In this document: piece by piece, positions 7,642 to 55,696 of the stretch
Layout of the letters: every line of letters begins with the position of its first letter
How positions within the stretch are numbered: position 1 is the first letter of the stretch
Assembly (NCBI GenBank): GCA_001630475.1
Contig: KV419427.1
Location: 125,629 to 189,628 of the forward strand
Length of the DNA: 64,000 bases
Direction of reading: 5' to 3'
Source of the DNA: Sistotremastrum niveocremeum HHB9708
Lineage: Eukaryota > Basidiomycota > Agaricomycetes > Sistotremastrales > Sistotremastraceae
Notes under the pieces: generated by a model
Seen by the model: the letters and a program-made list of their open reading frames with translations, nothing else
The model's database searches: none
What the model was told of the DNA's origin: nothing
Program-made: the position numbers and the translations under genes

Positions 7642-10600
7642 ATGGCTGATCAGTCGTCGGCTGATAGTCATGCCCAACCTTTGCAGCATCCAGTGACTGC
7701 CATACCGACCGTGTCGATGGGCACGTTGGAAACAAAATTCGATAAGCTGCTGTCGTTGATGGAGATACAGACTATGGCCATTAGGGAACAAACTCCGGCG
7801 ATCAAGGCGATGGAACAAGAGCTGAAGGACCATGGGGAGAAGTTGGAAACCCTGCGAAAGGACGCCGTGAAAAGTCAGTCTTGATGACAGACATGTAATT
7901 TCTGTTCTGATTGTCAACCCTAGATGATCAACCATTAGAGCAACGAGACCTGAAGGACCGGCAAACGTGGGGTGCCGTGAACAAGGAGGCTATTGCCATG
8001 ACGAAGGAAGCAGTTGGTGAATGGACCACGCTGATGAATGTTTCCTTGGTCTTTGTGAGTGATTACCCCACCTTCATTCACGAATATATCGATTGACTTC
8101 AATAGAATGCCATTTTCCTTGCGATTGTGACTGCGTTCATTGTTCCGGTTCTCCAGGTCCTCCAACAAGTCCCAGCATCAGATAGCTCCGCCGATGACCC
8201 AGGAGCATCATCGGGCCTGTTTGACCCTCATCGACAAGAAGTGATACAACAATGGATTGCATTATTTCAAGTATCCGCTTTTGCGCTAAGCGTGAGTAAA
8301 TAATCCACGACATCACTATCCGCTAAGCTAAGACCGGATGCAGATTTTCAACTCTGCATTGTGTGTACTTGGTACACAATGGGCAGCACGACTGATTGCT
8401 CGTATCAAGGCCGAAGACAGCCACGAGTCAACCATTCAGTTCGAGCGCCGAAAAGCTATAGGGAAGAAGTGGCTTCTCCGACTCTCCGGATTACTTTTCT
8501 CAACGCTACTGCTGTCTATCCTCCTCTTCATGGTTGCATTCCTCCTGCAGGCATGGGTCGTTGCGTACGCGCAGCCCACACCACGACCGGTGCTCATCGC
8601 TGCCGCTGCCATCGTGACAGCCATGGTATTCACGATTTTGATAATTGTGATCGTGACAACATACCATGCTGTGCGAAGGGACAATTCGCCCTTCGAGACC
8701 CCGCTGAGTAATGTGATACGTTTACTCTTTACAAGCGAAGGGAATCATGAAGGCAGCACTCAAAGTACGGAGGATATGCTTGAAGTCACAAAAGACGACG
8801 GAAAGGATATGGTCTATCAAAGAGGATATGAGTATTACGAATTCAAGCCGGAAACGCTGAAAGTTTATGCGTCGGTAGTCATCAACTCACCGTATGCGTC
8901 AGTAGTCATCAACTCATCTGAAGCAGAGATCTTGGATAAGGTCGTGCCTTCATTCAGATTTGGCCCTTGGCTTGAAGCGGGAGATCCCTTGTTCCCGCTC
9001 TTTCGGGCAGTATATGAGCGATTCATGGTCCCAGACACGTCGATCCGTGTCAGGGAGACGATCGACGAAGAGTTCAGATCTTTTTGGAAATTACTCACCG
9101 ATGGGGAACGGAAGGAAAATACGAGGATCGGGCAATGGTATAAGTACCAGTGCTCCTCGTTGTGCTCTCGATCGGCCGAAGGGCATGCCAAATTTTTCAG
9201 GTTCTTCGTTGAAATCACTTCAGCGCAAGAAGACAACGGGGATCTGCGAGAGATCGCACAGTTTCCATATAAGGAAGCTATTGGTCGTATTCTCGCTTCG
9301 TATGACCGAGAGGCGGAAGTACTAGTGGGGGATCGAGAAGAGATATTTGATTTGGCTATCAGCAGATGCATCGATCTCCTCCAGGCTGGAAAGGAAGATG
9401 ACGTCAGAGAAATCGTTTCGGCTCCTCATTCTTCCATCATCAAGTCATTCATGCGATCTGCTAGGGCTTTTCGCGTTCCAAACGAGGATGTTCTTCGCTC
9501 GTTCATCTTACAAGGACGGGAACAGACTGTTCTCACCGATATATCGGCCTTCTTATCAGATCCTCTCCTTGCCTCTCACTCCGAGAACTACGACATCCTC
9601 GTCACCCTTGTGAAGCATCTTCCTCCTGACTTCAGTCTCACTACATCCCTCGACCTTTCGCACGTCCTTGTCACGGCTTGTCGAAGAGGGCTCCCCTGGA
9701 ATAGCTGGGAAGAATTTATAGATGTGGCCCTGTTCTTACTGGAACGTGGCGCTTTTGATATGCTAACGGATGTCAGCTCAGCATACATCTTCCTGAAGCA
9801 GTCTCTTGAGCATCTTGACGTTTCGTCTGCCTCTTACAAACGCGCTAGCTCTTTTCTGGACCAACACGCGGAGCGCTTTTCTGGTGCGAGATTAGCATAT
9901 ATACACCTGTCTTCTATTAACACTTCTGCTAGGCTGCCTCAAACTCTCTGATGACGCTCACGCAACCCTTGTTGCTGATCTGTCTGTCTTCGCGCGAGAG
10001 CTAGATTCCTCTGATCATGTTGCCAGGGTCAGGAAATTTATGATCGCGCTCAATCGTTATCATGCACTCCTTCTTGGTGACCACCGACCACCGCTCAGCC
10101 AGGCCGACTCTCTGTCGATTCTCAAGTCTATTATCCGCAACCCCTTTGCAAATTGGAATGATCTCGAGCCTTTCGTGTCTCGAGTCCAGTGGAACAATGC
10201 TGCCATTTGGAAAGTAATTTCTCGCGCTGAAAACCTTGTGGCTTACGTAGATGGCGATCTACTTCCTTTACGATTCCTCGGATATCTCAAAGAGAGAGAT
10301 TTCGTCCTCCCATCTGACTCTGACTTGTCACCCCTACTGGCGTGTATCCCTTGGAGTGAACCTTGTAAGCCATATACTTGGCAGGTATACATTGATACTT
10401 TGATGCATTACATTGCTCAAGGAGACGCTTTTTGTCGTCTCACCGATCGTGGCTCTGCACGCGAATTCTTCACCTTCTGTGCCAAAGCACCCGACGATTA
10501 TCTCTATGATTATCGAATTTTCACATCCGATGAGACTCGCAGGCAAGCCAAAAACTACCTAAAACGAATGGACTCTGTTAATGGTGTGTGATCTATATCT

Positions 10601-10889
10601 CAATATGACTTCTGCCCTGTACTGACTCGTGAACTTAGATGAACACGCAACAAGCTCTCGCGTCATGAAGTACTGGTATATGACACGAGCGACTGTCACG
10701 AAGTGGCTCGGCCGCTCGCCTAGCTTTGATAGCAGCAATGGCTCTATTACTGCCTCACTGGGTTCTCATAGTACGATCGAAATGGAGGACATAGCGCCAA
10801 TCGAAGAAGACGCCACCAGCACCTCCAACTCGGTTACAGGCGCGGTTCACGAAGCGCCTACTGCGGATACTCACGGCACTCCTGCTTGA
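7642..10889 (+). CDS. DUF6535 membrane protein, copy A
   Basis: Six exons: 7642-7873, 7924-8054, 8106-8291, 8344-9883, 9933-10583 and 10639-10889, all with GT-AG borders and matching phases, give about 1,000 residues. The N terminus is a charged helix/coiled coil (FDKLLSLMEIQ...HGEKLETLRK). Then follow the DUF6535-type block WTTLMNVSLVF with a membrane segment, a second segment over ALSIFNSALCVLGTQW, and two long hydrophobic helices around 8500-8580 and 8600-8670, with RRKAIGKKW between segments 2 and 3. The SPFETPLSN motif closes the domain. The remainder (about 700 residues) is helical and cytosolic in character, without a recognised enzyme motif. An in-frame Met is preceded by a stop, so 7642 is the best start. 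A 9-residue tandem duplication is unique to this copy. The protein is probably an integral membrane protein of unknown function; its position between NLR genes hints at immunity or recognition, which is inference. Confidence 0.8.
8866..8919 (+). repeat. 27-bp coding tandem duplication
   Basis: Two adjacent 27-bp units encode YASVVINSP and YASVVINSS. Copies B and C have only one unit (FASVVINAP and YASVVINSP), so this is a recent in-frame duplication private to copy A. Confidence 0.85.
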
Positions 10890-11137
10890 GGTGTTCGTGC
10901 TTCGAGGAGAATCGCACCCCCAGCATGTACTCATTCGTTGGCGAGTGGATCTTGATCTCTTGCCTACGTATGGAGAGGTTGCGCCGATTTCACATCGCCA
11001 ATCTCACCCCGACAGTGGCACTGAGATCCTGCTTCTCATGTATACGACTTTGTCTATTTCTCTTCACTCCCTTTTTTATTTATTTCTTCTCAATACCCTA
11101 CAAATTCTCGGACTTCCTTGGCCTCGACCAATCAAGG
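10890..11137. other. Convergent 3' intergenic spacer, conserved in the inverted copy
   Basis: A 248-bp spacer lies between the stop codons of DUF6535 copy A and the phosphatase gene. The equivalent spacer on the right (39659-39897) is 239 bp and clearly homologous, including GGATCTTGATCTCTTGC-like and TTTCTTCTCAATACCCTAC-like blocks. It must carry both polyadenylation regions, so the two transcripts may overlap at their 3' ends. Confidence 0.6.
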
Positions 11138-13689: not shown

Positions 13690-16600
13690 ACCGCGATTGG
13701 CGCTATGAGCACCTCAGAGTCGCTCCTGCCAGGCTGGGCTACACCTGAATCTTGCAACGCAGTAAGCTCGTCACAGTGACCTTGAGACTCATCACAATCT
13801 CATCATATCAAAGACTTGATGGTTGGATTTCCGAGTCGTTCAGTCTTAGAGACCAGCACTCCAATCCATGCTTCACGTTTAAGAGCTACGGCGATTCTGG
13901 TCCGGCCTCAAGAGGTCGTCATAACACGAGACGACTCAGTGTGGCATTTTTGACCGGTATGAATGACTGCTGAACATCTTCTGTAGAGATGAGAATTTGT
14001 CATGGATCACAACGCGATGTGGAGCTCTACCGAACAATCTGGCATTCCTCGCAAACCGACGTTACCGCCTTGAGATCTTTCTGTGATCAGGTCGCTGTCC
14101 GATGTTCTCGGGCTTCTCATCCATACAGCCATATCCCTAGTTCCGTTGACGACGGGACGTGTAGACAGCCCATGCTGTCAATATTTCTTCAGTTTATCAA
14201 TCTTAACATCTTAACACAGAAGGCGCGGGAGAATCCCTTTGACGATGTGTACCTGGGTCTCGGTCTAAACATATGATTCCGATCTCGAAGGAACACACAA
14301 ACTTCCACGCAACCTTCATCGCCTTCGATTTTCAGTTTGCGAAAGAGAGTTTTCAATTCAACCTCTTGAGTAGTGACAATACGCGCCTCGGAATGAAACC
14401 CTGGTCTCGTACATACTCGGCTTCATCTCCAAACTGGTCTACTATATTCAAGCCACAAGAATAAGATCAAATAACTCCAAGACAGTCGTTACACTCAGCA
14501 TTGCAGCAATTCTTGATTGCGAAGTGTCTCACGTAGCGTCTGGAACCCCATCTCTGCAATACTTCACCGGGACGTCGGCGGCTCGCTATCTCCTATTCTA
14601 TGCTGCTCGAAGTCGGACAACGACTGTGGATAACCGCTAGAGATCTTACGATCTACTCTCACTCAAGCCGGTCCTAATTTCCAATACGACTCTTGCAATC
14701 CGGAGATCTTAGGCGACTAATTCAAAGAACTCGAGCCTTCGTCAAGCAGACCGTATGTGGTTTTACACCTCAGCCCATCGGGATACAGTTCCCGATGACG
14801 CCTCTACTCACAACAAGCGACGCGATTGAGCTTGACAGATCTTTATTATTCGGTGCTGACTTCTCCCAGGAGTAGATTTCACTCGGCCGCTTTCATTACT
14901 ATATCGTTACATCTTTATCCGCTTTATATTCACTCGTGCTCATAGACACTCTTGAGTTTTCCTCTTTTGAATAAATGTTTTTAGATAATATCCTATGCCA
15001 TTTTTGCATGTCAAATGTTACATCGAATCCGTGAGGAAGATCGACACCAACTTTGAAAGACTCGAAGGAGGCGGTTCGGCAATCGCCGGCGAGAGCTCTC
15101 TCGAGCCATGACGTTCACTGGTCTGCGACGCCGTCCTCTCTCTGAAGCATCCAGACCAACTTGATTGCATTACCTCTAGTATGTTGGATGCGACTCTGTA
15201 GCCTCTTCGGAATATGGAACAACACGCGAACCTTGACATACTGAGCTCCAGTCATCCGGTCGAAAAAGAGCGACGCAGGTTAGGGTGGCATCCATCAGCT
15301 TTTCAAGCACGGATCACATCATGTATGCTGCCTTTGACATTCATGTTTCGACATAACTAACCTCTTGGGATAGCTCAGATTATCTATCTGGCGCCAGACG
15401 TAAGCGTTCGAGCTCTAGATGGCAAATCGTGAATGGAACCTGAGACGACAATGTGGTAAAGCCATCTCATCAGCGATAGACGACGGATAGGATCTTCTTG
15501 CTCATTGAGGTACGTTCAGTCTTCTATAATCAACGAAAATATCTCATTGGCTCACAACACGCCCTTCTCGTTCCTCAGCGCTCAAGGTTGAGACGCCGAA
15601 ACCATGCGCATACATTGCACAGCCCATCCCAGTTCTCTCACCACCACCTCGTTCCTGCCACCTCGCACTTCCGCCTCGACCCCTCATCATCCCCTCTCGT
15701 CGACCGTTCTCTAGACGTCATCCAGCTACAATAGCACACGACCGCGATGGCTTATCAGTCGTCGGCTGATAGTCATGCCCAACCTTTGCAGCCTCCAGGG
15801 ACTACTATACCGACCGTATCGATGGGTGCTTTGGAGACAAAATTCGATAAGCTGCTGGCGTTGATGGAAACCCAGATTGTGGCCACCAGGGAACAAACGT
15901 CTACGATCGAGAAGGAATTGAAGGATCATGGGGAGAAGTTGGAAATTCTGCGAAAGGACGCTGTGAAAAGTCAGTCATGATTGGGTGTTAGCACGATCTG
16001 CTTTAATTGTCAACTCTAGACGATCAACCGTTTGAACCACGAGAGCTCGAAGATCAGCAAACATGGGGTGCCATGAATAAAGAGGCTGTCGCAATGACGA
16101 AGGAAGCGGTTGGCGAATGGACCACGTTGATGAATGTTTCCTTGGTCTTTGTGAGTGATTTCCTCATCTTCATTCACGAATATATAGATTGACTTCAATA
16201 GAATGCCATTTTCCTTGCCATTGTGACTGCGTTCATTGTTCCGGTTCTCCAGGCCCTCCAACAAGTCCCAGCATCAGATACCTCCGCTGACGACCAAGGA
16301 GTATCATCGGGTCTGTTTGACCCTCATCGACAAGAAGTGATACAACAATGGATTGCATTATTCCAAGTATCCGCTTTTGCGCTAAGCGTGAGTAAATAAT
16401 CCACGACATTACTATCCGCTAAGCTAAGACCGGTTGCAGATTTTCAACTCTGCATTGTGTGTACTTGGTACACAATGGGGAGCACGACTGATTGCTCGTA
16501 TCAAGGCAGAAGACAACCACGAGTCAACCATCCAGTTCGAGCGCCGAAAAGCTATAGGGAAGAAGTGGCTTCTCCGACTCTCCGGATTACTTTTCTCAAC

Positions 16601-18963
16601 GCTACTTCTGTCTATCATCCTCTTCATGGTTGCATTCCTGCTGCAGGCATGGGTCGTCGCATACGCACATCCCCAACCACGACCAGTGCTCATCGTTGCC
16701 GCTGCCATCGTGACGGCCATGGTGTTCACGATTTTGATAATCGTGACCGTGACAACTTATCATGCAGTACGAAGGGACAACTCGCCATTTGAGACCCCGT
16801 TGAGTAATGTGATCCGTTTACTGTTAAGCAGTGGAGGGGAACATGGAGGCAGTTCTCAAAGAACCGAGGATATCCTTGAAGTCACATCAGACGACGAAAA
16901 GGATGTTTCCTATTGGACAGGTTCCGATTACGGGTTCACGGTAGAAACACTGAAGGTGTTTGCATCTGTGGTAATCAACGCGCCTGAAGCAGAGGTCTTG
17001 GAGAAGGTGGTGCCTTCATTCAGATTTGGGCCTTGGATTGAAACAGGGGATCACTTGTTCCCACTCTTCAAGGCAGTATTTGACCGATTCATGGCCACAG
17101 ACACGTCGATCCGTGTCAGGGAGACACTTGGTAACGAGTTGACATCTTCTTGGGACTTACTCGCCGATGAGGAGCCCATGAATTTCAAGGATACGAGAAT
17201 CGGGCGATGGTATTCACGCCGATGCCACGAATTGTGCGATCAATCGGCCGAAGCTCACGCGAAATATTTCGGGCTCTTTACTGAAGTCGCCTCAGTGCGG
17301 GAAGGCAACACGGATCTGCGAGAGATCGCACAGCTTCCATATAAGGAATGCATGGGTCGCGTTCTGGCTTCATATGACCGAGAGGGGAAAGTGGGATATC
17401 GAGAAGACATCTTTGGCTCCGCTATCGGCGGATGCATTTCTCTCCTCCAAGCTGGAAAGGAAAACGACGTCAGAGAAATCATTTCGGACTGCCATTCATC
17501 CATCATTAAATCATTCATGCGATCTGCTAGGGAGTGGCGCATAGTAGACGAGGACGTTCTTCGTTCGTTCATCCTACAGGGATGTGCACCGGCTATTCTC
17601 ACCGACATATCGGAGTTCTTATCTGATCCTTTTCTCGTCGCTCACTCACCAAACTACGACATAGTCGCCGTCCTTGTTCCACTGCTTCCTCCTGACTTTA
17701 CCCTTACTTCGCACCTCGACCTTTCGTATGTGCTTGCCGCAGTGTGTCGAATGGGGCAGCTTCTTTGGAGTAACTGGGAGGATTTCACGGATGCGACGTT
17801 GTTTTTACTCGACCATGGCGCTTTTGATATGCTATCTGATATCAGCTCCGCGTACACTTTCCTCAAACAATCTCTCAAAAGTGTTGACATTTCTTCTCCC
17901 TCTCACCAACGCGTTAGGTCGTTTCTGGACCGACATGCGGAGCGCTTCACTGGTGCGAGCTTACAATATGGATACATTTCTTTTTAACGCTTCTGCTAGG
18001 CTGCCTCGAACTCTCTGATGACGCTCACGCAACCCTTGTTGCTGATCTGTCTATCTTTGCGCGAGAGCTAGATTCTTCTGATCCTAATTTCAGGATAAAG
18101 AAATTCATGATTGCGCTCAACCGTTATTATGCAATCCTTCTTGGCGACAATTCCCGACCGCTCAGTCAGGATGACTCTCTGTTGATTCTCAAGTCTATTA
18201 TCCGCAACCCCTTTGCAAAGTGGAGGGATCTCGAGCGCTTCGTATCTCGCTTTGAGTGGACCAATGCCGCCATTTGGAGAGCAATTTCTCGCGCTGAGAA
18301 CCTTGTGGATGTGGGCTACGTAGATGACGATCTACTTCCTTTACGACTGCTCGGATATCTCAAAGAAAGAGATTTTGTCCTCCCATCCGACTCTGACTTG
18401 TCACAGTTACTGGCCTGCATCACCCGTTGTGAACCTCGTGAGTCATTCACTTGGGAGGTACACAGTGATACTTTGATGCATTACATCGCTCAAGGAGACG
18501 CTTTCCGTCGTCTCACCGATCGTGACTCTGCACGCAAGTTCTTCACCCTCTGTACCAAAGAACCCGATGATTATATCACCGATTACCGACACTTCACAAC
18601 GGATGAAACTCGCAGGCAAGCCAAAGAATACTTGAAGCAGATGGACTCCGTTAATGGTGTGCAACCTATATCTCAATTTGAGTTCTCCTTTGTGTTGACT
18701 GAAGAAATCTAGACCGGACCGCAAGCTTTCGAGTCATGAAGTACTGGCATATGACACGAGCGACAATCACGAAGTTGCTCGGCCACAAACCCAGCGTTGA
18801 TCAAATGTCTGACTCTGTAGGGGCCTCACCCGTTCCTCATAGGGCGATTGAGATGGAAAATATATCGCCAACCGGAGAAAACCCCGTCCAACAAGATACA
18901 GGTGTCGACCCCGACCCGCCTTCTGCAGCTCCGACTGTGGACGCTCATCATACTCCTGCTTGA
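13690..18963. repeat. Tandem duplication, unit 2 (DUF6535 copy B plus 5' flank)
   Basis: Direct copy of 5840-10889. The non-genic 5' flank (13690-15746) aligns with 5840-7641 in long, only moderately diverged blocks. The phosphatase gene that follows copy A is not present after copy B, so the duplicated unit ended near the DUF6535 stop codon. Confidence 0.75.
15747..18963 (+). CDS. DUF6535 membrane protein, copy B
   Basis: Intact paralogue of copy A with the same six-exon structure and the same intron positions. The coiled-coil N terminus is MAYQSSADSHAQ..., followed by WTTLMNVSLVF, two long transmembrane helices (16580-16760), SPFETPLSN at about 16785, then about 700 helical residues. The E4/E5 intron (GTGCGAGCTTAC...GCTAG) and the E5/E6 intron (GTGTGCAACC...ATCTAG) preserve phase. 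The C-terminal tail of about 80 residues starts at RVMKYWHMTRATITK and is rich in Pro, Thr and Asp, ending DAHHTPA. No damage was found. Like copy A, it is a probable multi-pass membrane protein of unknown function. Confidence 0.8.
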
Positions 18964-25839: not shown

Positions 25840-26227
25840 GTTCGCAGTCAAAACGAAAGTGGGTCGGTTTCCACGAGTCCAGGGACACTAGGGACATGTT
25901 GATCGGTAGAGGCGGTAATTAAGGCGTCCAGAATTCTTTTCGCCGCCTGGAAGTCGAGCGCTAGGCCCATATAGGATTTTAGCAACGCTGCGACCTGCTT
26001 GCACCAGTTCGGACGCTGACTAATGACATGAGGCGGATTACTGAGCGATATATTTTTCTCGACCATACAGAAAGGTATCGTTATTATACATCGAACTTTA
26101 CAGGCTTATGAATATATAGATTAGGAGAGCGTAGGTAGAAGTCAAACAGGGGTCTTCGACGCTCACGTCCATACCACCACCACCACAATACTAGCACTCG
26201 AATCGGTGCCTTCGAATTCGAGGCACA

Positions 26228-36001: not shown

Positions 36002-37920
36002 TCAGCCATCCGATTCCTCCCCTTCGTCATCCTGATCTCTGATAGTCATCATATCATTTAAGCTATTTTCCCCGTCAGCCATCTCCCGATATCACCAGGT
36101 CCAAAGAACGAAAGAAGGAAGCGCCAAAAAGAGGTAAAATAGGAGAGGGACTTACCAATGCACGAAAGGCCTCAAGATAGTGACGATCTTGCATATGTCG
36201 TCTTTGAAGGTCGGCGCGAGGACTTCGCTATCTGTGAACCTGCCAAGCCACACAATGAGCACAACTCTCCAACAGTAGTCGAAGTGTCACAAGTCCCGTT
36301 CACTCGAGCCCGTGGACCCAATTCCCGGCCCCAGTAATCCAAGGTCAAGGGACTTGTTCCTCGATCGAGGGGCATGTATGAACAAAAAGTACTCGAAGAC
36401 ATCATACCTGCAGCTAACAGCCAGACTCCGCAACTTCAACAAATCAATATCCTTATGATCCTTGGTAACACCTTCAATCTTCGGGGCGTTCTTCAGCTCG
36501 TCTTCGGCGCCGAATATACTCTGTCGTTCGCCCTTGGGGTGTTTGGTTGGAGGACCGAAGTATTGGATGAATGAGGGATCGGAAATTGTTGAGCGGAGCC
36601 GTTCACGTAATGTTCGACTGTGCAGGATGTTATGTCTGATGCAAGTTAGCGATGGGTCGGACGAAGGAGGCTTTGTAATTACCTTATACAGGATAATTCG
36701 TTTTTGGCGGGACACCATGTTCCAGCAGCCAACAACGATCCACCAGGTTTAACTTCAGATGATCTATGATCAATATAACGAAACAGGGAGCTGAAACGTG
36801 CTTACTGGCACTGAAGGGAGCAACGCCCGTGTCACGACCCATCCGATTCCCAAGAAACAAAGCTTACAGGTGATCTGCGCGTGAGATAAGAATGAGCGTC
36901 AACCACATTAGAAGTAGTGCGCGGAGGGAGGACGTACAACCGGCGAAAATACCCTTCCTTCCACTCCTCGAAAAACTCGCTGAGAAGCCCGTCTTATAAG
37001 GCGTCTTATCATTGCTAAACCTCACCTATCCCAATCTCCGTCAGCTTCGAACCCGTCACATAAGGGAAAGAAAGGGAAGGCTGACATCTCGGTAGATCCG
37101 ATGAATGACATCCTTAGGAGGCAGAGCTGGAAGTTGAGGATCGGCTGCAATGAGAGAATCTGTGAATTCCGTGATGAAGTCTTTGAATTCTTGTTCGGCT
37201 TGACGGTAGACTGGTTCTGTGTAGGCGAAAACACGAAGTCAGGAAATATTAATGAGAGGTGGTGAGGGCGGAGTACCGTGCAGTTTGAACCTACATATCC
37301 AGTGAATCCGAGTTCGTCGTTGGTAGTGAGTACGCACCATTCACGGTCATTACACTTTGGATCCTTCAAATTTTCCAAAAACCCAAGCGTATTCTTGGAG
37401 ATCTGACCGGGTGGAACTAGAATTCAGCGCAAAATCAAACCCTGCTTGTTGACGACTCACGACACGAAGAGAACGCACCTTTACCAGTCGTAGGAGCCTG
37501 TACGACTCGGCCTACAATCATCACATTCTCGTCATCGTCATCGTCTTCTTGGTCTTCCACCTTTCGCTTCTTCTTCGGCGTGGATTTAGGAGTTCCACGA
37601 CCCCTACCCGCGACCACTCGCTTCCTCTTCTTGCCCTCTCTAAAATTTTCGTCCTCATCCAGATTATCACTGTCAATCTCCTCCACACTCTCGTCCTGCC
37701 CTTCATTTCCACCCTCATTGTCCACCTCTTCTTCAAGACTTGCTTCATACGTTTTATCGTCTTCGTCGTCTTCATCTGACCGCGGGCTCGTTTTCCGTTT
37801 CGTGACTTTTTTCGGAGTTGATTTCTTAGGAGTTGAATTTTTGTTCTTGTCGGGTGTACTGGCTACGCTGGATTTGACCAAGGTACGCGTCGAAGAACGA
37901 GTAGGTGTCGAGACTGGCAT
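36002..37920 (-). CDS. DUF2461 (TIGR02453) family protein with basic/acidic N-terminal tail
   Basis: Multi-exon gene on the minus strand. Exon 1 (37920 to about 37479) encodes a low-complexity leader: repeated STPKKSTPKK, then a long Asp/Glu-rich stretch, then KKRKR and TPKKKRKVEDQ, which resemble nuclear localisation signals. The DUF2461 part starts at KNTLGFLENLKDPKCNDREW, continues through a 14-nt micro-exon encoding FKLH, then PVYRQAEQEFKDFITEF, PPKDVIHRIYRD, FGPPTKHPKGERQSIFG and KDHKDIDLLKLRSLAVSCRF, and ends NDMMTIRDQDDEGEESDG. This matches the family's fungal members in order. The function of DUF2461 is not established; the leader suggests nuclear or chromatin placement (inference). 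Confidence 0.8.
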
Positions 37921-39897: not shown

Positions 39898-42800
39898 TCA
39901 TGCAGGCGTGCCATGAGCGTCCGCAGTATGAAGGTCGGGGTCGGCGCCTGCAACTGAGTTGGTGGAGTCTTCTTCGATTGGCGACATATTCTCCATCTCA
40001 ATCGCCCTGTGAGGTACGGGTGAGGCCGACTCAGAGTGAGGCGTTCGATCAACGCTGAGCTTGTGGCCGAGCCACTTCGTAATTGCCGCTCGTATCATAT
40101 GCCCGTACTTCATGACTCGAGAGTTTGTCGCGGTTTCATCTAGATTCACGAGTCAGTACAGGGAAGAAGTCACATTAAGATAGAGATCACACACCATTAA
40201 CGGAGTTCATTTGCTTAAGGTATTCCTTGGCTTGCCTGCGAGTCTCCTGAGATGTGTAATCTCGGTAACCGATGACATCATCGTCAGGTTCGTTGGCACA
40301 GAAGGTGAAGAATTTGCGTGCAGAGTCACGATTGGTGAGACGATGGAAAGCGTCTCCTTGAGCGATGCAATGCATCAGAGCATCACTGTGCTCCTTCCAA
40401 TAATACCAGCGAGGTTCGTGACGTGTGATGCAGTCCAATAAAGGTGACAAGTCAGAGTCCGATGGAAGGACAAAATCTCGTTCTTTGAGATATTGGAGGA
40501 ATCGGAGAGGAAGTAGATCGTTACCTACGTAGCCCAAGTTCGCAAGGTTCTCAGCGCGAGAAATGACTTTCCAAATGGCAGCATTGTGCCACTGGACTCG
40601 AGATACGAAAGGCTCGAGATCATTCCGATTTGCAAAGGGGTTGCGGACCATAGACTTGGGCATCAAAATGCAATCATCTTGACTGAGTGGTGGGGGACGA
40701 CCCCCAAGAACGAGTGCATGATAACGATTGAGCGCGATCATAAATTTCCTAACCCCGGCATTATGATCAGAGGAATCTAGCTCTCGCGCGAAGACAGACA
40801 GATCAGCAACAAGGGTTGCATGAGCGTCTACAGGGAGTTCAAGGCCGCCTGGCAGAAGCGTTAATAGAAGACATGTATACATATGGTAAACCCATACCAG
40901 AAAAGCGCTCAGTGTGTTGGTCCAGAAACGAGCTAGCGCAATTGTAAGAGGCAGAGGAAATGTCAAGATGCTCGAGAGACTGTTTCAGGAAAATGTATGC
41001 GGAGCTGACATCAGAAAGCATATCAAGAGCGCCATGTTCGAGTAGGAACAGGGCCGCATCGGTGAAGTCTTCCCAGGTACTCCGGGGGAGCCCGATTCGA
41101 CACACTGTGGCCAGGACATGCGAAAGGTCAAGGGGTGCAGTGAGACTGAAGTCAGGAGGAAGGTGCTTAACAAGAGCGACGAGGATGTCGTAGACACGGG
41201 AGTGAGAGACAAGGAGAGGATCAGATAAAAAACCCGAGATCTCGGTGAGAATAGCCCCTTCCCGTCCTTGTAGGATGAACGAGCGAAGAGCATCCTCATC
41301 TCGAACGCGCAAAACCCTGGCCGATCGCATGAATGACTTGATGATGGAAGAATGACGAGCCGAAACGATTTCTCTGACGTCATCTCCCTCTCGGCTTGGA
41401 GGAGAGAAACGCATCTGTGAACAGCGAAAAGAAAGATGTCTTCTCGATCCCCCACTTCCCGGTCTCGGTCATACGAAGCCAGAATACGACCGATAGATTC
41501 CTTATATGGAAGCTCTGCGATCTCTCGCAGATCCTCGTTGCCTTCTTGTACTGACGCGGCTCCGACCCAGGACCTGAAATATTTCGTATGCCCTTCTGCC
41601 GATTGATCACACAATTGTTGGCACTGGTTGGAATACCATTGCCCGATCCTCGTATTTTCATTCCGTTCCCCATCGGTGAGTAATTTCCAAGAAGATCTGA
41701 ACTCTTCGCTGATCGTCTCCCTGACACGGATCGACGTGTCTGTGGCCGTGAATCGGTCGAATACTGCCTTGAAGAGTGAGAACAAGTTATCGCCTGCTTC
41801 AAGCCAAGGCCCGAATCTGAATGAAGGCACCACCTTGTCCAAGACCTCTGCTTCGGGTGAGTTGATGACTACCGACGCATATACTTTCAGCGTTTCCGGC
41901 GTGAATTCGTAATACTCAGATCCTCTTTGATAGGCCATATCCTTTCCGTCGTCTTTTGTGACTTCAAGCATATCCTCCGTACTTTGAGTGCTGCCTTCGT
42001 GATTCCCTCCGCTTCTGAAGAGTAAACGTATCACATTACTCAGCGGAGTTTCAAATGGAGAATTATCCCTTCGCACTGCATGGTATGTCGTGACCGACAC
42101 GATTATTAGAATCGTGAACACCATGGCTGTCACGATCGCAGCCGCAGCAACCAGCACCGGTCGTGGTTTGGGCTGTGCGTATGCAACGACCCATGCCTGC
42201 AGGAGGAAGGCAACCATGAAGAGAAGGATAGACAGCAGGAGGGTTGAAAACAGCAATCCCGAGAGTCGAAGAAGCCACTTCTTCCCTATAGCCTTTCGAC
42301 GCTCAAACAGGATGGTTCACTCGTGGGGGTTTTCCGCCTTGATACGAGCAATCAATCGTGCTCCCCATTGTGTTCCGAGTACACACAATGCGGAGTTGAA
42401 AATCTGCATCCGGTCTTAGCTTAGCTGATAGTAATATCTTGGATTATTTACTCACGCTTAGCGCAAATGCGGATACTTGGAATAGTGCAATCCATTCTTG
42501 TATCACCTCTTGCCGGTGAGGATCAAACAATCCCGTGCCATCTGTCGCCGACGCTTGAAGGTCCTGGAGTACGGGAACGATGAATGCTGTCACGATTGCG
42601 AGGAAGATTGCGTTCTGGGAAAGTCTTTAAGCATGTCTGCACAAGGCGATGAAGGTATTACTCACGAACACCAAGGACACATTCATCAAGGTGGTCCATT
42701 CGCCAACCGCCTCCTTCGTCAATGCGACAACCTCCTTACTCATGGCGCCCCACGTTTGCTGGTCCCTCGGCTCTCGTTGCTCAAACGGTTGATCGTCTGA

Positions 42801-43086
42801 TAGTGACAATTGGAACACGTATTGCTTGATCGAGACAAGACTAACTTTTAACAGCGTCTTTCCGCAGAGTTTCCAATTTCTCCCCATGGTCCTTCAGCTC
42901 TTGTTCCATCGCCTTGATCGCCGGAAGTTGTTCCCTAATGGCCATAGTCTGTATCTTCATCAACTCCAGCAGTTGATCAAACTTGGTCTCCAGAGCGCCC
43001 ATTGACACAGTCGGTACGGGAGTCCCTGGAGGCGGCAGGGGTTGGGCATGGCTATCAGCCGACGCCTGCTCAGCCTGATCAGCCAT
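39898..43086 (-). pseudogene. DUF6535 membrane protein, copy C (broken)
   Basis: Third copy, closely related to A and B with the same six-exon layout. The start homologous to copy A is ATG at 43086 (MADQAEQAS); an in-frame ATG also exists at 43221. Transmembrane helices (42070-42260) and SPFETPLSN are conserved. Two lesions are visible in exon 4. A TGA stands where A and B have a serine codon, in the residues between the GTQWGARLIARIKAE part and RRKAIGKKW (about 42318). One base is missing near 41393, where A reads LLQAGKEDDVREI, and this shifts the frame. Beyond it the correct frame resumes as DDVREIVSARHSSIIKSF and runs to the end (DAHGTPA). A sequencing error could explain one lesion but hardly both. 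Confidence 0.7.
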
Positions 43087-43959
43087 CGCGCGTGCTATCC
43101 TAATGGGAGGACGTCCGGAGAACGGTCGATGAGAGGGTGTGACGAGGGGCGAGGTGGACGTGCGAGATGGCAGGAACGTGGTAGTGGGAGAACAGGGTTC
43201 AATTGGATTAGGCTGTGCCATATGCGCATAATTTTCGGCGTCGAAAGCCTGAGCGCTGAGCGCTGAACACCAAGAAGAGGGGTGTTGTGAGCCATTGAGA
43301 GGTTGTTGTGGTTCGGGGAACGATGAACGTCTCCCTCAGACTAAGACAATCCCTTCCATTTTTCACCGCCTATTAGATGGCTCTTGCACGGCTCTACCGC
43401 GTTGCCCACTCAAGGCTCCGGTCGACGATTTGTCGTCTAGAGCACAGACGTGCATGTATAGATATTCTAAACTATCTCGAGACGTTAGTTATGTCGACTC
43501 ATGGATGGAAAGGGTGGCATACATGATGCTGTCCGGATTGAAAAGCTAATGGCTGCCACCGTGACGTTCTTAGCTCTCTTTTGACAGAATGGCTTGCTTG
43601 TAGGAGGTTGTTTCGCCACGTGTTGTTAGATATGCTGATTACTCGCATCCACCAGGCTATAAGCAATGCGATTCAGTTGGGATGGTTCATTGGTTGCTTG
43701 AGAGGGAAAACGTGTTGAGTCGAAATGAGACGAGTGATGTTCAACGCTCTGGAGAGCTGAGAGCTCTGGACGGCGATGCCCGCGCCGCCTCCGAGTCTTC
43801 CAAGTTGGTATCGAGCTCATGTATTATATATTGCACCAAAAGAGAAAGCACTACGAGCAGCAGAATATATGATTTGATGTAAGAACGATGGTCGAAAGCT
43901 ACGGAAAGCAACGTGGCCTCTGAACAGAAGTGAATATAATCGCCCAAGTCAGGACAAGA
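43087..43959. other. 5' leader of copy C and spacer to the DUF6535-WW gene
   Basis: The first 240 bp match the 5' leader of copy A (shared CTCAGCGCTCAGGC and proline-codon-rich blocks). The remaining 630 bp up to the end of the DUF6535-WW gene show no recognisable gene. Confidence 0.5.
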
Positions 43960-46900
43960 TTATGGCATTCGCCTCTCGGACGATTCAGCTTCAGTTAGAC
44001 TGGCCGTGCCAGGTTCTGTCGTATCATTTGTTCTCAAATCATGCTCGGCAGGCTCATTGGAAGCGGCATTCCCAGTAGACTCAGGCGCATTGACGGAATG
44101 CGGTTCGGCCAACACAGGCTCAATTGATTGGTCCCCTGTGACCATGATGGAATCCATTTCAAGAGTTGTATGAGGACCGGGGTTAGCTTGACTGATCGTA
44201 GCAGGAGCTGGGATTGACGGCGGAGGTTCCCAGGTTGCCGTTCTGGTATTGTAATCAACGTAGTAGATTCTACCACTTCCATCAACGCGTCTTTCCCAGC
44301 CATGCGGAAGCGATGCACGAGGATCATCGCGTGACGCCATCGCTGCTTGTGTCGTCCAGTTTGATTGAGAGGGCATTTGATAGAACATCGGTCGAGTCCA
44401 AGTGGTCGTGCCCGTATTACGATCGAAGTAGTAGGTTCTCCCGGAAGAGTCAGCCCGCGCTTCCCAGCCGTACGGGAGGGCAGCGTTGGACTCCGCATTG
44501 AGATTCGCATGGAAGATTCGTTGGCGTGAGTTCCAAGGCGCAACTGGTCCGTTGGAGACATAGGGATAGCTTTGGCCTGTCACAGCAATTTGCCCTCCCG
44601 GTGATGGGTATTGATATTGGGGTGAGCCGGGAGCAGAAAGCGGTGACCCTGCATTTACGGAAGGAGAGAGGGGAGCTGATGGTGGTGTTGATTGAATTTG
44701 GACGAGTGGTCTGTTATCCGATTGACCACTGACTTCCGCGGGAGTTAACATTTGCATTGGGATATTAATGTGGCCTGCCGGAGAATTTTGAGCGGGAGTC
44801 TGAATATTCTGTGAAGGACCCGGCGATGTGATCCGAGGTTCATCCTGGACTTCGTTGGTATCCAATGCAGTCGGTTGAGCACCAGCGGCCACGGACGGTG
44901 CTGTCTGCACTCCAACATTCGTCTGGCTCACGAAGTTTGTTGGGATGGACGAATTCTCTGGGACGGACAAATTCTCTGGGATGGACGAATTCTCTGGGAC
45001 GGACAAATTCTCTGGGATGGACGAATTCTCCGGGACTCGTTCGGTAACGGGTTGTCTACTAAATGCTCTCCATATCTTGTTTAATTTGTTTAATTGACGA
45101 GCGAATCCGGAAGCAGGCAAGCCGTGGGACGGTTGAGCTAAACGACATACTCGTTAATCAAGAATCAAGATTGACTCCTCAGTACGTACGAGAGACATCT
45201 ACTTCGAGCCGCGTGAGGTAGGATTTAGCCCATTCACGTGTCTCCGACCCAGTCTCGTGCTGATAATCGCCCTGAGTTGCATCAGGTTCCTCTGCACAAA
45301 GATGGAGAAACTCGCAGATAGAGGCACGATGAGTCTGAACATTGACAGGACTCGTCCGGTCAATGTAATGCTTGAGTGTCTCGCTGTATCGTTTCCAAGT
45401 TTTCCTGCGAGGTCGGTCACAAGTGACGTAGACAAGCAGTTGAGAGAAATCAAGGTTAGGAGGGGCCACAAGGCATCGCTCTCGGAGGCGAGCAAGGAAT
45501 TCCAGAGGCAGCAGCTCGTTGCGGACATAAGGTGTGGTCCACAGGACCTTGACGCGAGAGAGGGTTTCCCATACGAGACTATCTGCCCACGGCGCGTGAG
45601 CATCTGTAAACTTAATGTCTGACCACTTCAATACAGGATTTTGCATTAAGGACCGCAGAATTGACTCCTGTTCATCTCGTCTGAATCGTATTGCAAAATT
45701 GCGCTGAAAGAGAAGTAGATTCCAATAATCCACCGCTGCCACAAATGCGATTATCGCCCCATTCAAGTTTTGAGGTTCTAAGTTCCCAGCAAAGATAGAG
45801 AGACCAGAGATCAGTCTATTTCGGTCATCGATAGACGGATTAGACATTGCTGAACGAGACGTCACAATCAGCACAGACAAGCATTGGTCAATGATCACAC
45901 GTACCAGAGAAGCGGGGGGCATATTGACTGAGATAAAACGCAGCACGGTCACGGAGATGCTGTTGCATCTGCGAATCGCTCCTGCACCGTACCAACACAG
46001 GATACGCAGGGCCGATATCTGATAATTGATGGAAAGCTCCTCTATCAAGGTAGAAAATCAGCGTCTCGCTGTAATGTCGCCAGGCATCGACATTCGTAAC
46101 TTTTTCGTCTCGAAGAAGCATGAAAAGGACGCGTGAAAGGTTGAAGTTGCTGGGAAGTACGAGTTCATTTGGAAGAAGGGGACTGAGCAATTCCAAGAAT
46201 TCGAAAATATGAATGCCTATTGAGTTGCTGGGCGGAAGCTCCGAGATCAAGTTTGATATTTCCTGCAAGACCATGCGTTCGCGCCCCCGGGCGATAAAAG
46301 GAAACAGATGCTCGGTCTCGGAAACTTCGAAAGGAGATCGGATCAGAGATTTGAGGATAGAAGGCCAGTTAATGGCAATGATCTTTGCGACATCATTTGA
46401 CCTGCCGCTGCGAATGAGGGCATCGCACTGCCGGAGAGCCGATTCAAACACATCGTGTCGATCGCCTCTTTCCTCGTCGGGAGCATATGACGCTAGGAGG
46501 CCACTCATGCACTCCTCGTAGGGAAGCTTTGAAACTTTCCCAAGATCGGAGTTATCAAATGCCACTGAAGTGAACGAGACAAAAGAAGGAAAATATTTGA
46601 CGTGCAATTCGCGTGACTGAGAACACAGTGTATCACACTGATTTCTGCACCAGCGAACAAGTGGAGCGTCTCCAGCGCGATCACTGTTGTGCGCAAATGC
46701 AACGAGTTGTTGGAAGACGGTCTCTTTCACCCGAAGAGATGTGTCAGAGGCCATGAATCGGGCATGGATCGCTTTGAAGGCTGACAGTATGCCGTCAGCG
46801 TCATCGGGCGAGCGCCACTCGAGGTACTCGAACGACGGCACGGCTTTCTCCAAGACCTCCGTGTCGGACGTCTTCAGAACCACGCCAGCATAGATTCTAA

Positions 46901-48060
46901 GCGTCTCCATGTAGGAAGACTCGTCAGATTTCAGCTCGACGAATTGTGCCATATCGGTAGTCTCTGTCGTTTTTCTCGTATCTCGACGGAGTAGGAGACG
47001 CAGGATGTTGCTCAGTGGGGTTTCGAAAGGCGAGTTCTTGTTTTGAACCGCATGATAAGTCGTGGCGACGACGATGACCATCGTAGCGAATACCAGTGTA
47101 GTGACCACTGCCGCTGCAGCGATGAGAACAGGTCGTGGTTCAGTCTCAGCATACGCGACGATCCATGCTTGGAGTAGAAATGCGACCATGAAGAGTAGGA
47201 TGGACAGGAGCAGCGATGAGAACAGCAAGCCCATAAGGCGAAAAAGCCACTTCTTGCCGGTGGCTTTCCTGCGCTCCTGTAGCCGTGTCATCTCATGATT
47301 GTCTCCCGCGTCGATTCGAGCGACTAAGCGGGCTCCCCATTGAGTTCCGAGAACACATAGCGCAGAGTTGAAGATCTATCGAACGGGTTAAAAGATGTCT
47401 TCTCATGCGATTTGATGATCACGTACGCTCACTGCAAATGCGGAGGTCTGAAAGAATGCAATCCATTGCTGTATGACAGCCTGACGATGTGGATCAAACA
47501 ACGCCGGTGAGTCACTATCGTCGGGACTAGAATTGGAAGCCGGTGTTTGAAGGTCTTGAAGCACCGGTACGATAAACGCGGTCACAATCGCGAGAAAGAT
47601 AGCGTTCTGTGAGATGCCATGAGAATGGTGAAGTTATCGGGATGGAGTCACTCACGAAGATCAAAGAAACACCCATAAGATCTTTCCATTCTCCAACAGC
47701 CTCTTTCGTCATTGACGCTGCTTCCTTGTTCAGCCCACCCCAGGTCTGTTGATCCTTCAGTTCCCGTAACTCGAACGGTTGGTCATCTGCCTTAGTTTAA
47801 GTCGAGGTCTATCATGGCAACCCTCACGACTCACTTTTCAAAGCGTCCTGTCTGAGCGTTTCCAGTTTCTCGCCGTGTTCCCTAAATGTCATCTCCGTCA
47901 ACTGAGTCTGCTTCTCCATGAGTGACAGCATTCTGTCGAATTTGGCCTCCAATGGACCCAAGGAAACCTGAAACATGCCCTGCGGAGGGTGTTGTGCTTG
48001 CCACGGAGGATATGGGGGATTGGGTTGACCGAGTGGACCTTCGGGACGTTGGTGGGCCAT
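43960..48060 (-). CDS. DUF6535 membrane protein fused to two WW domains (copy D)
   Basis: Divergent fourth DUF6535 gene, about 1,300 residues. Exon 1 starts MAHQRPEGPLGQPNPPYPPW and contains the coiled-coil FDRMLSLMEKQ...HGEKLETLRQ. Exons 2-4 give WKDLMGVSLIF, NAIFLAIVTAFIVPVL, GTQWGARLVARI, RRKATGKKWLFRL, two long transmembrane helices (47070-47230) and SPFETPLSN. A helical region follows across exons 4-5. The last exon (from about 45136) differs completely from copies A-C. It holds a basic stretch (RQLNKLNKIWRAFSRQP), a 12-residue repeat (VPENSSIPENLS), a Pro/Gln/Ser-rich linker, and two WW domains. WW1 begins LPYGWEARADSSGRTYYFDR and ends TTWTRP; WW2 begins LPHGWERRVDGSGRIYYVDY and ends TATWEPP. 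Both have the two signature tryptophans, the aromatic pair and the closing proline. WW domains bind proline-rich ligands, so this protein may recruit partners to a membrane (inference). Confidence 0.82.
44218..44312 (-). other. WW domain 2
   Basis: Encodes LPHGWERRVDGSGRIYYVDY followed by NTRTATWEPP. The first Trp, the YY pair and the second Trp plus Pro are all in place, and the GWE...G+xYYVDYNT..T.W..P pattern is canonical for a class I-like WW fold. Confidence 0.9.
44388..44482 (-). other. WW domain 1
   Basis: Encodes LPYGWEARADSSGRTYYFDR then NTGTTTWTRP. All WW signature residues are present. It is separated from WW2 by about 25 residues. Confidence 0.9.
44942..45031 (-). repeat. 36-bp coding minisatellite in DUF6535-WW
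   Basis: Tandem units of 36 bp (two half-units of 18 bp differing at a few bases) encode VPENSSIPENLS, about 2.5 times. The near-identity of units indicates recent slippage expansion. It lies in the linker before the WW domains. Confidence 0.85.
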
Positions 48061-50811: not shown

Positions 50812-50829
50812 GGCGTCTATGATTATATG
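50812..50829 (+). promoter_or_regulatory. Promoter block shared by both NLR genes
   Basis: GGCGTCTATGATTATATG, identical to the block upstream of the left NLR, about 90 nt before the ATG at 50919. The TTTCTTCCCACCAACTT motif just before the start codon is also shared. It is likely a core promoter with a TATA-like element. Confidence 0.55.
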
Positions 50830-50918
50830 AAAGGGGGGAAGGCACCGCTCACCCTTGCACTCGTCCACACGTGTCGCATTTTCTTCCCACCAACTTCATT
50901 CTCCAATCTCTCTATCCA

Positions 50919-53900
50919 ATGTCCAAATCCTCCAAATCGAACAAATCTTCCTCCAAACGCGGATTCCGCCAATCTTTGAAATCATTTGCCTCTAGATTTC
51001 GAAGCCGCAGTCCCTCACCAGTCCCACCAGACTCTGCAGCATCGACGACTCAGCTATCCGAGTCTCTATCAATCGCGCCCAGGACAGGTCCTGGTGAATC
51101 ATCTCATGACTCCACCGTCAATTCTATGCCAAGTTCAGCTCATCCATCCTCTCCACATGCTTCCTCTTTCATCACATCTCCCGTACATCCACCCTCGCCA
51201 GCTGATGCGCCGGCGCCGACGTTGTTAGCACAGCCACCGCTTTCCGATACGCCCTCGTCTCAGACTGATACCGCCCTGCAAGCTCCTTCAGTGAATCCAT
51301 CCACGCTTGTGGTCGAGGAAGACTCATTGTCTCACAATACCCAAGAACACATTCTTGACTCAGCGATGACGGCGCCACCGCCATCATCATCTTCCGCGGC
51401 GGTAGAATCTATCATGCAGTCAGCTCTCCCTATGATACGAATCGATTCGCCTCCCTACGAAAACGCTCCTCCAGAACATCGCTCGGAGTCGAGCGCTGCG
51501 GCCTCGCTTGGTACACACGAGACTACTCGCTCCAGACTCGCATCCTTGTCATGTATAGTGTGGGAAGGTACCAAAACGTTCATGAAGATAGCGAACGAGA
51601 GCTCGGACTGGAATCCCTTCCTCAAATCGGCTCTCGGTGGGTTTGTAGCTTGTGTCGAAGCTCTTGAAGTACGTCGTTCGATCATCGTCTGATTGGACTT
51701 CGCTCTTATCGCGAATGATTTCTAGTTGCCCCAGAGCAATAGAGAAGAGCTAGACAATATACTCAAGAAGCTTCAACTCCTCGAGCAGACTATTACCCCA
51801 TATCGAGGATCATCGCTCTCCAAGGCCATCAGCGATGGACTCGACAATCTGAAAGGGTGGGTTTATTGGTCTCCCCGCTGTACATTAGTGATTCATACAT
51901 TTGTTCAGCACTTTCGAAGCTCAGACTAGGATGCTCGAAAAAATGAGGTCTCACGGTCTTCCGAGGCGCATCGCAGAAGGATCAAAGGACGCCGACGATA
52001 TATCAAGTTCTCTACGCGTCATCGACGATGCCTGCAATCTCTATCATGTACGCATGTCTTGAATTGAGACTCAATTAGGTCTTCGACTGACGTCACTCGC
52101 AGCTGGGTGCTGTTATTCGTACGGAGTTCAAGATCGACCAGACCCACCAGACGCTGGCCGAAGTCCTGAAGGTGATCAAAGCCAAACTTGATGTGCGCCC
52201 GTACATAGCATCCACATTCGAATCATTGCTAATGCCAAGCTACAGACCGACATGCTCAAGTCCCTGGCCGATAAGCTGCGCCCTGCAAGATTAGCACGCT
52301 TCGACGTCGCCCAGTCTGACGAGAGTGTATCGCGTCGGGAATGTACACCAAACACGCGTAAGGCCATCCTCGAAGAACTCATGTCCTGGAGTCGTGATAC
52401 AAATCCCTCGCGGCCGAAGATATACTGGCTCAATGGCATGGCGGGTACTGGGAAGACGACCATTGCTTACACCTTTTGTCAGCGCTTGAAAGAGCAGGAC
52501 ATGCTTGCCGGCAGCTTCTTCTGCTCTCGTGCCATCGACGAATGCAAGCAGGTCAACCGTATTGTCCCCACCATCGTCTACGCCATCGCGAACAACAAAC
52601 ATCTATCCCTCTTGATGCCCATTGTCGATGCCCTGGAATCCGACCCCGACCTAGCCGACATGGCTGACTTGCAAAAGCAATTCAAGGCACTCATGCTGAC
52701 CCCGTTACAATCCGTTACTCAATCTCAGCCTACGGTGCCTATCATTGTCGTTGACGCTCTCGATGAATGTTCCGACTCGCGGCGCGTACACACTCTATTG
52801 GCCACCATCTTCCACCACGCATCCATCCTTCCGTTCAAACTTTTTATCACCAGCCGCCCCGAAACAGAATTGGTCGGCTATCGTCGAGACCAACTACACC
52901 ATCTCTATTTCCTGCACGATGTTGGCCAAAAGATCATTCTCGACGATATCACTCTATATCTCGACACGGAATTGCGCCAGGACCCTCAGCTTAGGCCAAG
53001 CCTACATGCATCCAGCAAAGATATTGATATCCTTGCTCAACGAGCGAAGAATCTGTTCATATACGCAGCGACTGCAGTCAAATATGTTAAGGATCCGAAG
53101 GCTAACCTCCCTCGTCGCCGTCTTCGGCAGCTAGTCGACACAGGTGTGCACGTTCCTGGAAAATCAAGTACTGCTCCCCTGGATGCATTGTATACACAAA
53201 TACTCAAAGACCGTTATGATGGTCTTGACAATGATGAGCGCGGTGTGATGACAGCCATCCTACGTGCTGTTGTCTCTGTCCTTGTGCCGCTCACAGCTGA
53301 AAGCCTGGCATACTTGATCAACCAGGATGAAGACGAGGTATGGGATCAGCTGCAATCCCTTCGATCTGTGGTTTCCATCCCGGACAGTGGTCGAGATGCC
53401 AAGATCTCCCCATTGCATGCATCATTCCCTGACTTCATCACGTCTTCTGCGCGTTCTTGTGACCTTTTCCTTGACCCTCCAACATCACACCTTTGTCTAG
53501 CATCCCAATGTTTGAAGGTTATCAATAATTCATGGGAGAATTCTCTTGGCCATGTTTCCCTCAAATCCTCTCAATCAGAAAGCCTAGACATAGATGAGAG
53601 GCTCCAGTATGCTTGCCTCTATTGGGCATCTCACATTGCATCTTGTCACAAGGATCAGGATTTTCAGGATCTGTGGAGCCTCTTAGATGCCTTTTTGGAT
53701 AGACATGTCCTGCATTGGGTGGAGTGCCTTCAGCATCTTGATCAGCTCAAAGTTGCAGTGGATTCTTTGTATTCCATTGAAAGATTTCTATCTGTGAGAT
53801 TTTCATTTGCCATTGAATCAACCACTTACCAGTATCATTCAGAATTCCAACCCAGAGCTGTTGTCCAAGATTATAGATGCTCGCCGATTCATCGTTGAGA

Positions 53901-55696
53901 GCTTTCAAGTTATCGACAGTCATCCAGTGGAACTGTACAGATCTACACTCTTATGGTTACCAAAAACTTCACCCATGCGTACCACATACTTCACACCCAT
54001 ACAGCATCTATGTCCAAAAGTAATCAAGGGCTGCCGAAAGATGTGGGATGCCTGTGAAAAAGTTATGCAGGGCCACACCAACCATGTGAATTCTGTGGCA
54101 TATTCCCCTGATGGCACCCATGTGGTGTCTGGATCTGATGACAAGACAGTCAGGATCTGGGATGCTGCCACAGGGGCAGAGGTGCACAAAATGGAGGGCC
54201 ACACTTCAAGTGTGTATTCTGTGGCATTTTCTCCTAATGGCACCCATGTGGTGTCTGGATCTTATGACAAGACAGTCAGGATCTGGGATGCTGCCACAGG
54301 GGCAGAGGTGCANNNNNNNNNNNNNNNNNNNNNNNNNNNNNNNNNNNNNNNNNNNNNNNNNNNNNNNNNNNNNNNNNNNNNNNNNNNNNNNNNNNNNNNN
54401 NNNNNNNNNNNNNNNNNNNNNNNNNNNNNNNNNNNNNNNNNNNNNNNNNNNNNNNNNNNNNNNNNNNNNNNNNNNNNNNNNNNNNNNNNNNNNNNNNNNN
54501 NNNNNNNNNNNNNNNNNNNNNNNNNNNNNNNNNNNNNNNNNNNNNNNNNNNNNNNNNNNNNNNNNNNNNNNNNNNNNNNNNNNNNNNNNNNNNNNNNNNN
54601 NNNNNNNNNNNNNNNNNNNNNNNNNNNNNNNNNNNNNNNNNNNNNNNNNNNNNNNNNNNNNNNNNNNNNNNNNNNNNNNNNNNNNNNNNNNNNNNNNNNN
54701 NNNNNNNNNNNNNNNNNNNNNNNNNNNNNNNNNNNNNNNNNNNNNNNNNNNNNNNNNNNNNNNNNNNNNNNNNNNNNNNNNNNNNNNNNNNNNNNNNNNN
54801 NNNNNNNNNNNNNNNNNNNNNNNNNNNNNNNNNNNNNNNNNNNNNNNNNNNNNNNNNNNNNNNNNNNNNNNNNNNNNNNNNNNNNNNNNNNNNNNNNNNN
54901 NNNNNNNNNNNNNNNNNNNNNNNNNNNNNNNNNNNNNNNNNNNNNNNNNNNNNNNNNNNNNNNNNNNNNNNNNNNNNNNNNNNNNNNNNNNNNNNNNNNN
55001 NNNNNNNNNNNNNNNNNNNNNNNNNNNNNNNNNNNNNNNNNNNNNNNNNNNNNNNNNNNNNNNNNNNNNNNNNNNNNNNNNNNNNNNNNNNNNNNNNNNN
55101 NNNNNNNNNNNNNNNNNNNNNNNNNNNNNNNNNNNNNNNNNNNNNNNNNNNNNNNNNNNNNNNNNNNNNNNNNNNNNNNNNNNNNNNNNNNNNNNNNNNN
55201 NNNNNNNNNNNNNNNNNNNNNNNNNNNNNNNNNNNNNNNNNNNNNNNNNNNNNNNNNNNNNNNNNNNNNNNNNNNNNNNNNNNNNNNNNCCACAGGTGCA
55301 GAGGTGCACCAAATGAAGGGCCACACTTCAGATGTGAGATCTGTGGCATTTTCCCCTGATGGCACCCATGTGGTGTCTGGATCTGATGACAAAACAGTCA
55401 GACTCTGGGATGCTGCCACAGGCCAACAAAAACTGTGCTGTGACAATGGTTCATATGAGGCAACCATAAGTGCACTGCTTTTCAAAGTTTCTGATCAAAG
55501 GGAACTTGTCTCTCCACAGTACTCCATCAGTGATGACCTGAGATGGGTTGTTGCCAGAGATTCCGACCAGATGTCCCCATGGTGGATATCTCCTATCTAT
55601 CAGTCACCAGAAATAATGGCCATTTCTGACTCTTTTCTGTGTCTTAGATATGAGTATAAACATCTGATGTTTCTTCATATGAACCCTGTTTCTTGA
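50919..55696 (+). CDS. NLR: MLKL-like N-terminal helices, NACHT, WD40 repeats (gap inside)
   Basis: Paralogue of the left NLR with identical exon plan: 50919-51668, 51726-51856, 51909-52047, 52103-52192, 52246-53793 and 53843-55696. The first ATG is chosen because the MSKSSxSNKS start is shared. After a Ser/Pro-rich leader come the helices IANESSDWN...ALGGF, LPQSNREELDNILKKLQLLE, FEAQTRMLEKM and VIDDACNLYH, resembling the MLKL-like four-helix bundle. NACHT has GMAGTGKTT and IIVVDALDEC. The linker includes ERLQYACLYWASHIASC and IIDARRFIVESFQV. WD40 repeats are nearly identical to each other (SPDGTHVVSGSDDKTVRIWD). A gap of 977 N lies inside the array and is in frame. After it come one repeat and a unique tail of about 75 residues ending MFLHMNPVS, which the left NLR lacks. 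Expected role: cytosolic receptor triggering a membrane-active N-terminal domain. Confidence 0.85.
54313..55289. other. Assembly gap (977 N) within the WD40 repeats
   Basis: A run of 977 undetermined bases. The distance between equivalent codons (ACA of ...AATGAEV) on either side is 996 nt, about 7.9 times 126 nt, so roughly eight 42-residue repeats are missing. The gap coincides with near-identical repeats, the usual cause of assembly failure. Confidence 0.95.

Follow-up and report, generated by a model that had tools for sequence, protein, structure and literature searches.

Several membrane-spanning stretches are a feature of DUF6535 proteins, and one of the yeast proteins that carry a WW-like domain, Aus1, is a membrane transporter. 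The DUF6535 family (PF20153, IPR045338) has no assigned function in the sources covered here; in a table of a study on Flammulina, one row records a DUF6535 gene as down at high CO2 and gives it no function (PMC12387923). The available text of a second study places WW-like domains at yeast membranes in Ssm4 and Alg9, which are associated with the endoplasmic reticulum, and in Aus1, which serves sterol uptake (PMC1557994), so that membrane proteins bearing a WW domain are not in themselves a novelty. The third group for comparison is that of the NEDD4-type ligases (NEDD4L, Itchy, WWP1 and Rsp5), which have several WW domains.

In the current study, we analyzed a window of 64,000 nucleotides, the whole stretch of DNA considered here, from contig KV419427.1 of Sistotremastrum niveocremeum HHB9708. 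It holds a DUF6535 gene, D, that ends in two WW domains, and three sister copies, A, B and C. D matches the DUF6535 model and shares its exon layout with A and B, but the sisters have a tail of 80 to 83 residues where D has its WW arm. Like Ssm4, Alg9 and Aus1, D would be a membrane-associated protein with a WW-type domain; however, as described in the available text, the yeast WW-like domains lack the second Trp, which both WW domains of D retain. Like the NEDD4-type ligases, D has several WW domains with both Trp residues and the Tyr of the proline groove, in an alignment that is ungapped across the domain, but it has no HECT match, and the His of the ligases is Arg or Tyr in D. The preliminary description of this locus knew of no described DUF6535-WW architecture, and the papers that we searched (by titles, for WW with Agaricomycetes or Basidiomycota) are consistent with this, as they yielded none. 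Nor did the literature searched yield a combination of WW with NACHT in Basidiomycota, and in the main text of a survey of fungal NLRs, in the form available, neither DUF6535 nor the phrase “WW domain” appears (PMC9815663). Collections of viral and prokaryotic contigs, which are uninformative about fungi, gave no confirmed relative.

Gene structure and domain matches

Gene D spans 48060-43960 on the minus strand as a single six-exon gene (1281 codons, 1281 residues), organized as follows.

48060-47835, minus strand: exon 1, start MAHQ; D-specific proline-rich N-terminus with 9 Pro in 30 residues, including NPPYPPW
47786-47656, minus strand: exon 2; DUF6535 begins at residue 91
47606-47427, minus strand: exon 3; TM1, an acidic loop and the beginning of TM2
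47375-45905, minus strand: exon 4; remainder of DUF6535, TM2 to TM4, and an all-helical body (weakly ARM/HEAT-like)
45849-45190, minus strand: exon 5; continuation of the body, with likeness to the last part of exon 4
45138-45189, minus strand: last intron, 52 nt, GTACGT...TTTAG, phase 1; joins the DUF6535 body to the WW exon
45137-43960, minus strand: exon 6, the WW arm; 392 residues including the split codon, plus the stop

All five introns (48, 49, 51, 55 and 52 nt) are GT-AG, and with splice sites chosen on the sequence itself and on agreement with the sister copies, their positions and phases (1, 0, 0, 1, 1) are identical in D, A and B at five of five, the last intron included. In Pfam scans, DUF6535 was matched at residues 91 to 250 (85.8 bits against a cut-off of 23.9; E 4.4e-24), covering positions 1 to 176 of the 177 in the model, and WW was matched in two stretches at 80 bits (cut-off 26.9) with a joint E of 1.2e-22. 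At a joint E of about 1e-22, the pair of WW matches is, by this statistic, not chance. With E up to 0.1, D has four Pfam matches, of which none is to HECT and none to NACHT or NB-ARC; exon 6 scanned alone gave WW and no other family up to E 0.01, and exon 5 scanned alone gave no Pfam match. The claim that 48060-43960 fuses DUF6535 to two WW domains is borne out by this gene structure and by Pfam, both of which can be read directly from the DNA.

One might suppose instead that the fusion is an artifact of the gene model, with a DUF6535 transcript that reads through into the last intron and ends there, and with the WW exon as a gene of its own. In D as in A, a transcript that retained this intron would meet a stop a few codons on, so that a short isoform would be easily made. 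We nevertheless regard an artifact as very unlikely, since A and B have this intron at the same position and phase, in front of a last exon of their own, and since the frame of D is open from the acceptor through to the WW domains.

The reading that we prefer, and hold with about half confidence, is that D, a specialized version of the DUF6535 family, acts as an adaptor anchored in the membrane and brings in a proline-rich partner. Its N-terminal segment would lead into a DUF6535 module with about four predicted membrane passes, followed by a body of some 580 residues, helical where modeled, and then by a flexible arm ending in the two WW domains. A basic helix would sit close to the membrane, and the WW domains in tandem would draw a proline-rich partner from the cytosol to the membrane, the presumed site of the sister copies as well, or gather it there. 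A DUF6535 member with a recognizable ligand-binding arm might provide a functional handle on the family, with a partner obtainable by ordinary pulldown, and the arm would also mark the membrane side that the body faces. In sum, we consider the gene model, with its unusual domain pairing, to be well supported, from one instance, and infer the mechanism from it.

Sister copies

The three sister copies are placed as follows.

7642..10889, plus strand: sister A, 996 residues with an 83-residue tail; DUF6535 and no WW by Pfam
15747..18963, plus strand: sister B, 986 residues with an 83-residue tail; exon layout as in D
39898..43086, minus strand: sister C, with a stop and a frameshift in exon 4; 80-residue tail exon intact

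The Pfam scan took in D and A. The start residues are similar throughout (MAHQ in D; MADQ, MAYQ and MADQ in A, B and C), and the first three intron phases of C are likewise 1, 0, 0. C is probably a pseudogene, as its exon 4 meets an in-frame stop early on and shifts frame near 41.4 kb. Thus, of the three sisters with 80-residue tails that had been described, all have short tails (83, 83 and 80 residues in A, B and C), but two of the three retain open frames and C is broken.

Long blocks of DNA are common to A, B and C: 4.7 kb at 81% between A and B and, in inverted orientation, 5.2 kb at 78% between A and C and 4.0 kb at 77% between B and C. The DNA of D, in contrast, aligns to each of them over a mere 0.8 to 0.9 kb or so at 67 to 68%. 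By this measure, A, B and C are recent duplicates, and their tails represent one recent state and the arm of D another. For this reason, the proposal that D replaces the sister tail can be kept as regards the difference between the tails but not as regards the direction of change, the comparison being one of a single divergent paralogue with a single recent sister clade. Local alignment of the first 60 residues of the D tail with the sister tails did no better than shuffles: out of 2000, 24% reached the best score against A, 57% that against B and 39% that against C. The region begins with a predicted basic helix in D and with a basic stretch in the sisters, where a helix is assumed.

Copy A has an in-frame near-duplication in its body at 8344-9883 on the plus strand (VINSPYASVVINSS), which is absent from the aligned B and D. 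Separately, the DNA between the stop of D and the start of copy C (43501-43817) resembles the upstream regions of B (15038-15344, 67%) and A (7128-7223, 75%), which suggests that the sister duplications carried upstream DNA along.

Membrane part and body

Over exons 1 to 5, D and A share 47% protein identity, which rises to 70% for the membrane part and falls to 34% for the body; the body of D is 34 to 35% identical to those of A and B. With pN at 0.19 and synonymous change saturated in comparisons with A and B, the membrane part of D is, by its pattern of substitution, constrained. Hydropathy gives D three peaks above 1.6, with TM2 at 1.55, and A and B four each; the membrane passes of D are predictions from hydropathy. 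Loop 1-2 is acidic (one K/R, five D/E) and loop 2-3 basic (nine K/R, four D/E), which under the positive-inside rule would place both ends of D in the cytosol, so that the loop charges favor a cytosolic side for the WW arm. The flank before TM1 (five K/R, seven D/E) is net acidic, and the predicted topology therefore depends mainly on these two loops; neither loop 3-4 (one K/R, two D/E) nor the segment after TM4 (seven K/R, six D/E) decides it.

The predicted model of exon 4, built from three sequences, is all helical (pLDDT 68.8). Of its 1147 Foldseek matches, a single one, a designed repeat protein, reached E ≤0.001 (4.6e-4). Among the 50 matches listed, 37 are armadillo, importin/karyopherin or beta-catenin proteins by name, and TMq is at most 0.29. 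Given these weak scores, any ARM/HEAT likeness of the body would be one of kind, with no firm fold match. Searched by sequence against the PDB up to E 1, exon 4 gave no match. In its last part, exon 4 of D resembles exon 5 of A (30.9% over 136 columns, E 1.1e-5); a weaker likeness is to exon 5 of D itself (37% over 54 columns, E 0.002). These likenesses suggest that the body of DUF6535 genes may consist of repeats, with a possible internal repeat at 45190-46361 (minus strand) in D.

The WW arm

Exon 6 carries the following features.

45058..45114, minus strand: predicted basic amphipathic helix, residues 898-916
44941..45036, minus strand: PEN-repeat linker, a 36-bp tandem repeat in 2.7 copies with 98% matches
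44389..44478, minus strand: WW1, residues 1110-1139, by Pfam and predicted fold
44221..44310, minus strand: WW2, residues 1166-1195, by Pfam and predicted fold

The basic stretch, the PEN-repeat linker and the two WW domains ascribed to this tail by the preliminary description were all recovered, by repeat analysis, Pfam and modeling; the tail is long, as claimed, although it measures 392 residues and not about 385. It is rich in Pro (12.8%) and Ser (12.0%). In the single-sequence AlphaFold model of exon 6, mean pLDDT is 47.1 and most of the arm lies in long low-confidence stretches, while two three-stranded elements stand at the Pfam positions of the WW domains, with pLDDT of 81 to 86 in their core blocks and 56 to 70 at their edges.

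One further possibility is that the arm is a captured exon under no selection. The WW exon is in single copy: a tblastn search of the window with the whole of exon 6 gave the self-match alone up to E 1, and a WW-only query gave two further weak matches (E 0.43 and 0.93). The body of D also evolves fast, as its identity to A and B indicates. Still, a neutral tail seems rather unlikely when 391 full codons have stayed open (in 1000 dinucleotide shuffles of exon 6, the longest open run in the three sense frames was 310, with a mean of 125), both WW cores are intact and the 36-bp repeat unit is a multiple of three. A synonymous-codon test of the exon-6 frame separated the frames poorly, even for the held-out copy B, and so lends that frame no support.

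Ligand specificity of the WW domains

Both WW domains have both Trp residues and the final Pro, and three strands are predicted in each. WW1 has three consecutive aromatics (YYF), a mark of polyproline-binding WW domains. The Tyr and Trp of the proline groove are retained in both, the groove residues having been read by eye from PDB alignments, with numbering after the available text of PMC10625650. When WW1 and WW2 are aligned to NEDD4L and Itchy, however, the strand-2 His that helps to bind the ligand, present at this position in 57% of human WW domains according to the same text, is Arg in WW1 and Tyr in WW2; a further text consulted on this His (PMC4301871) yielded nothing of use. The earlier label of canonical WW domains is therefore apt for the fold and the Trp pair but not for this His; judged by their residues, the domains are intact, yet not textbook PPxY binders. 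From the retained groove, the altered His and the aromatics of WW1, a proline-rich ligand for D seems likely, and a PPxY ligand uncertain.

For WW1 as for WW2, the best PDB rows belong to NEDD4L, Itchy and WWP1, in a ranking that sums several WW domains per chain. Such a likeness could point to a NEDD4/Rsp5-like role in trafficking, or to a decoy whose arm would vie with the ubiquitin ligase for binding to PY-motif adaptors or cargo, and fungal Rsp5 reportedly works through arrestin adaptors. With the usual His replaced in both domains and no HECT match in Pfam, we consider this role unlikely. Equally improbable, in our judgment, is a latch that would control assembly, with the two WW domains gripping the proline-rich N-terminus of D itself (NPPYPPW), either in the same subunit or in another. 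A self-ligand is made possible by the D-specific proline-rich start, whose first 30 residues hold 9 Pro in D as opposed to 3 in A and 4 in B; both ends of D are predicted on the same side of the membrane, and the YYF of WW1 would suit a polyproline ligand. Nonetheless, a motif scan of D found no PPxY, LPxY, PPLP, PPR/K or run of five Pro, and the arrangement is known from one gene.

Neighboring NLR-like genes and other features of the window

Pfam finds NACHT/NPHP3_N and WD40 frames towards both ends of the window. The preliminary description of a WW arm on a multipass DUF6535 protein beside NLR-like genes agrees with the gene structure, Pfam, the loop charges and the exon-6 model. The layout is a mirror one: NLR1 on the minus strand (376-4765), A and B on the plus strand (7642-18963), C and D on the minus strand (39898-48060) and NLR2 on the plus strand (50823-55693). 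NLR1 and NLR2 are 76% similar over 2.2 kb.

This mirror layout fits a bolder reading, in which D would serve a local immune module as its dock at the membrane: the WW domains would hold the Ser/Pro-rich tails of the NACHT-WD40 proteins, and DUF6535 proteins would be the membrane partners of these NLRs. The N-terminal tails of both NLR-like genes (3980-4765, minus strand; 50823-51689, plus strand) are indeed Ser/Pro-rich, with 16.5 and 14.0% Pro over 200 residues, and have no Pfam match up to E 0.1. We think the dock highly improbable. As a WW ligand, the tails are weak candidates at best: PPxY is absent from both, and the two together hold one PPLP, in NLR1 (NLR2 has none), when 8% of shuffles of the NLR1 tail hold PPLP or PPxY.

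A letterless stretch at about 54300-55300 lies inside the WD40 part of NLR2, and the window has 977 N. Elsewhere, 23716-28406 holds a diverged tandem pair of about 66% DNA identity, with a flavin monooxygenase family match in one of three scanned pieces, and an open frame at 36290-36748 on the minus strand matches DUF2461 (E 2.4e-7).
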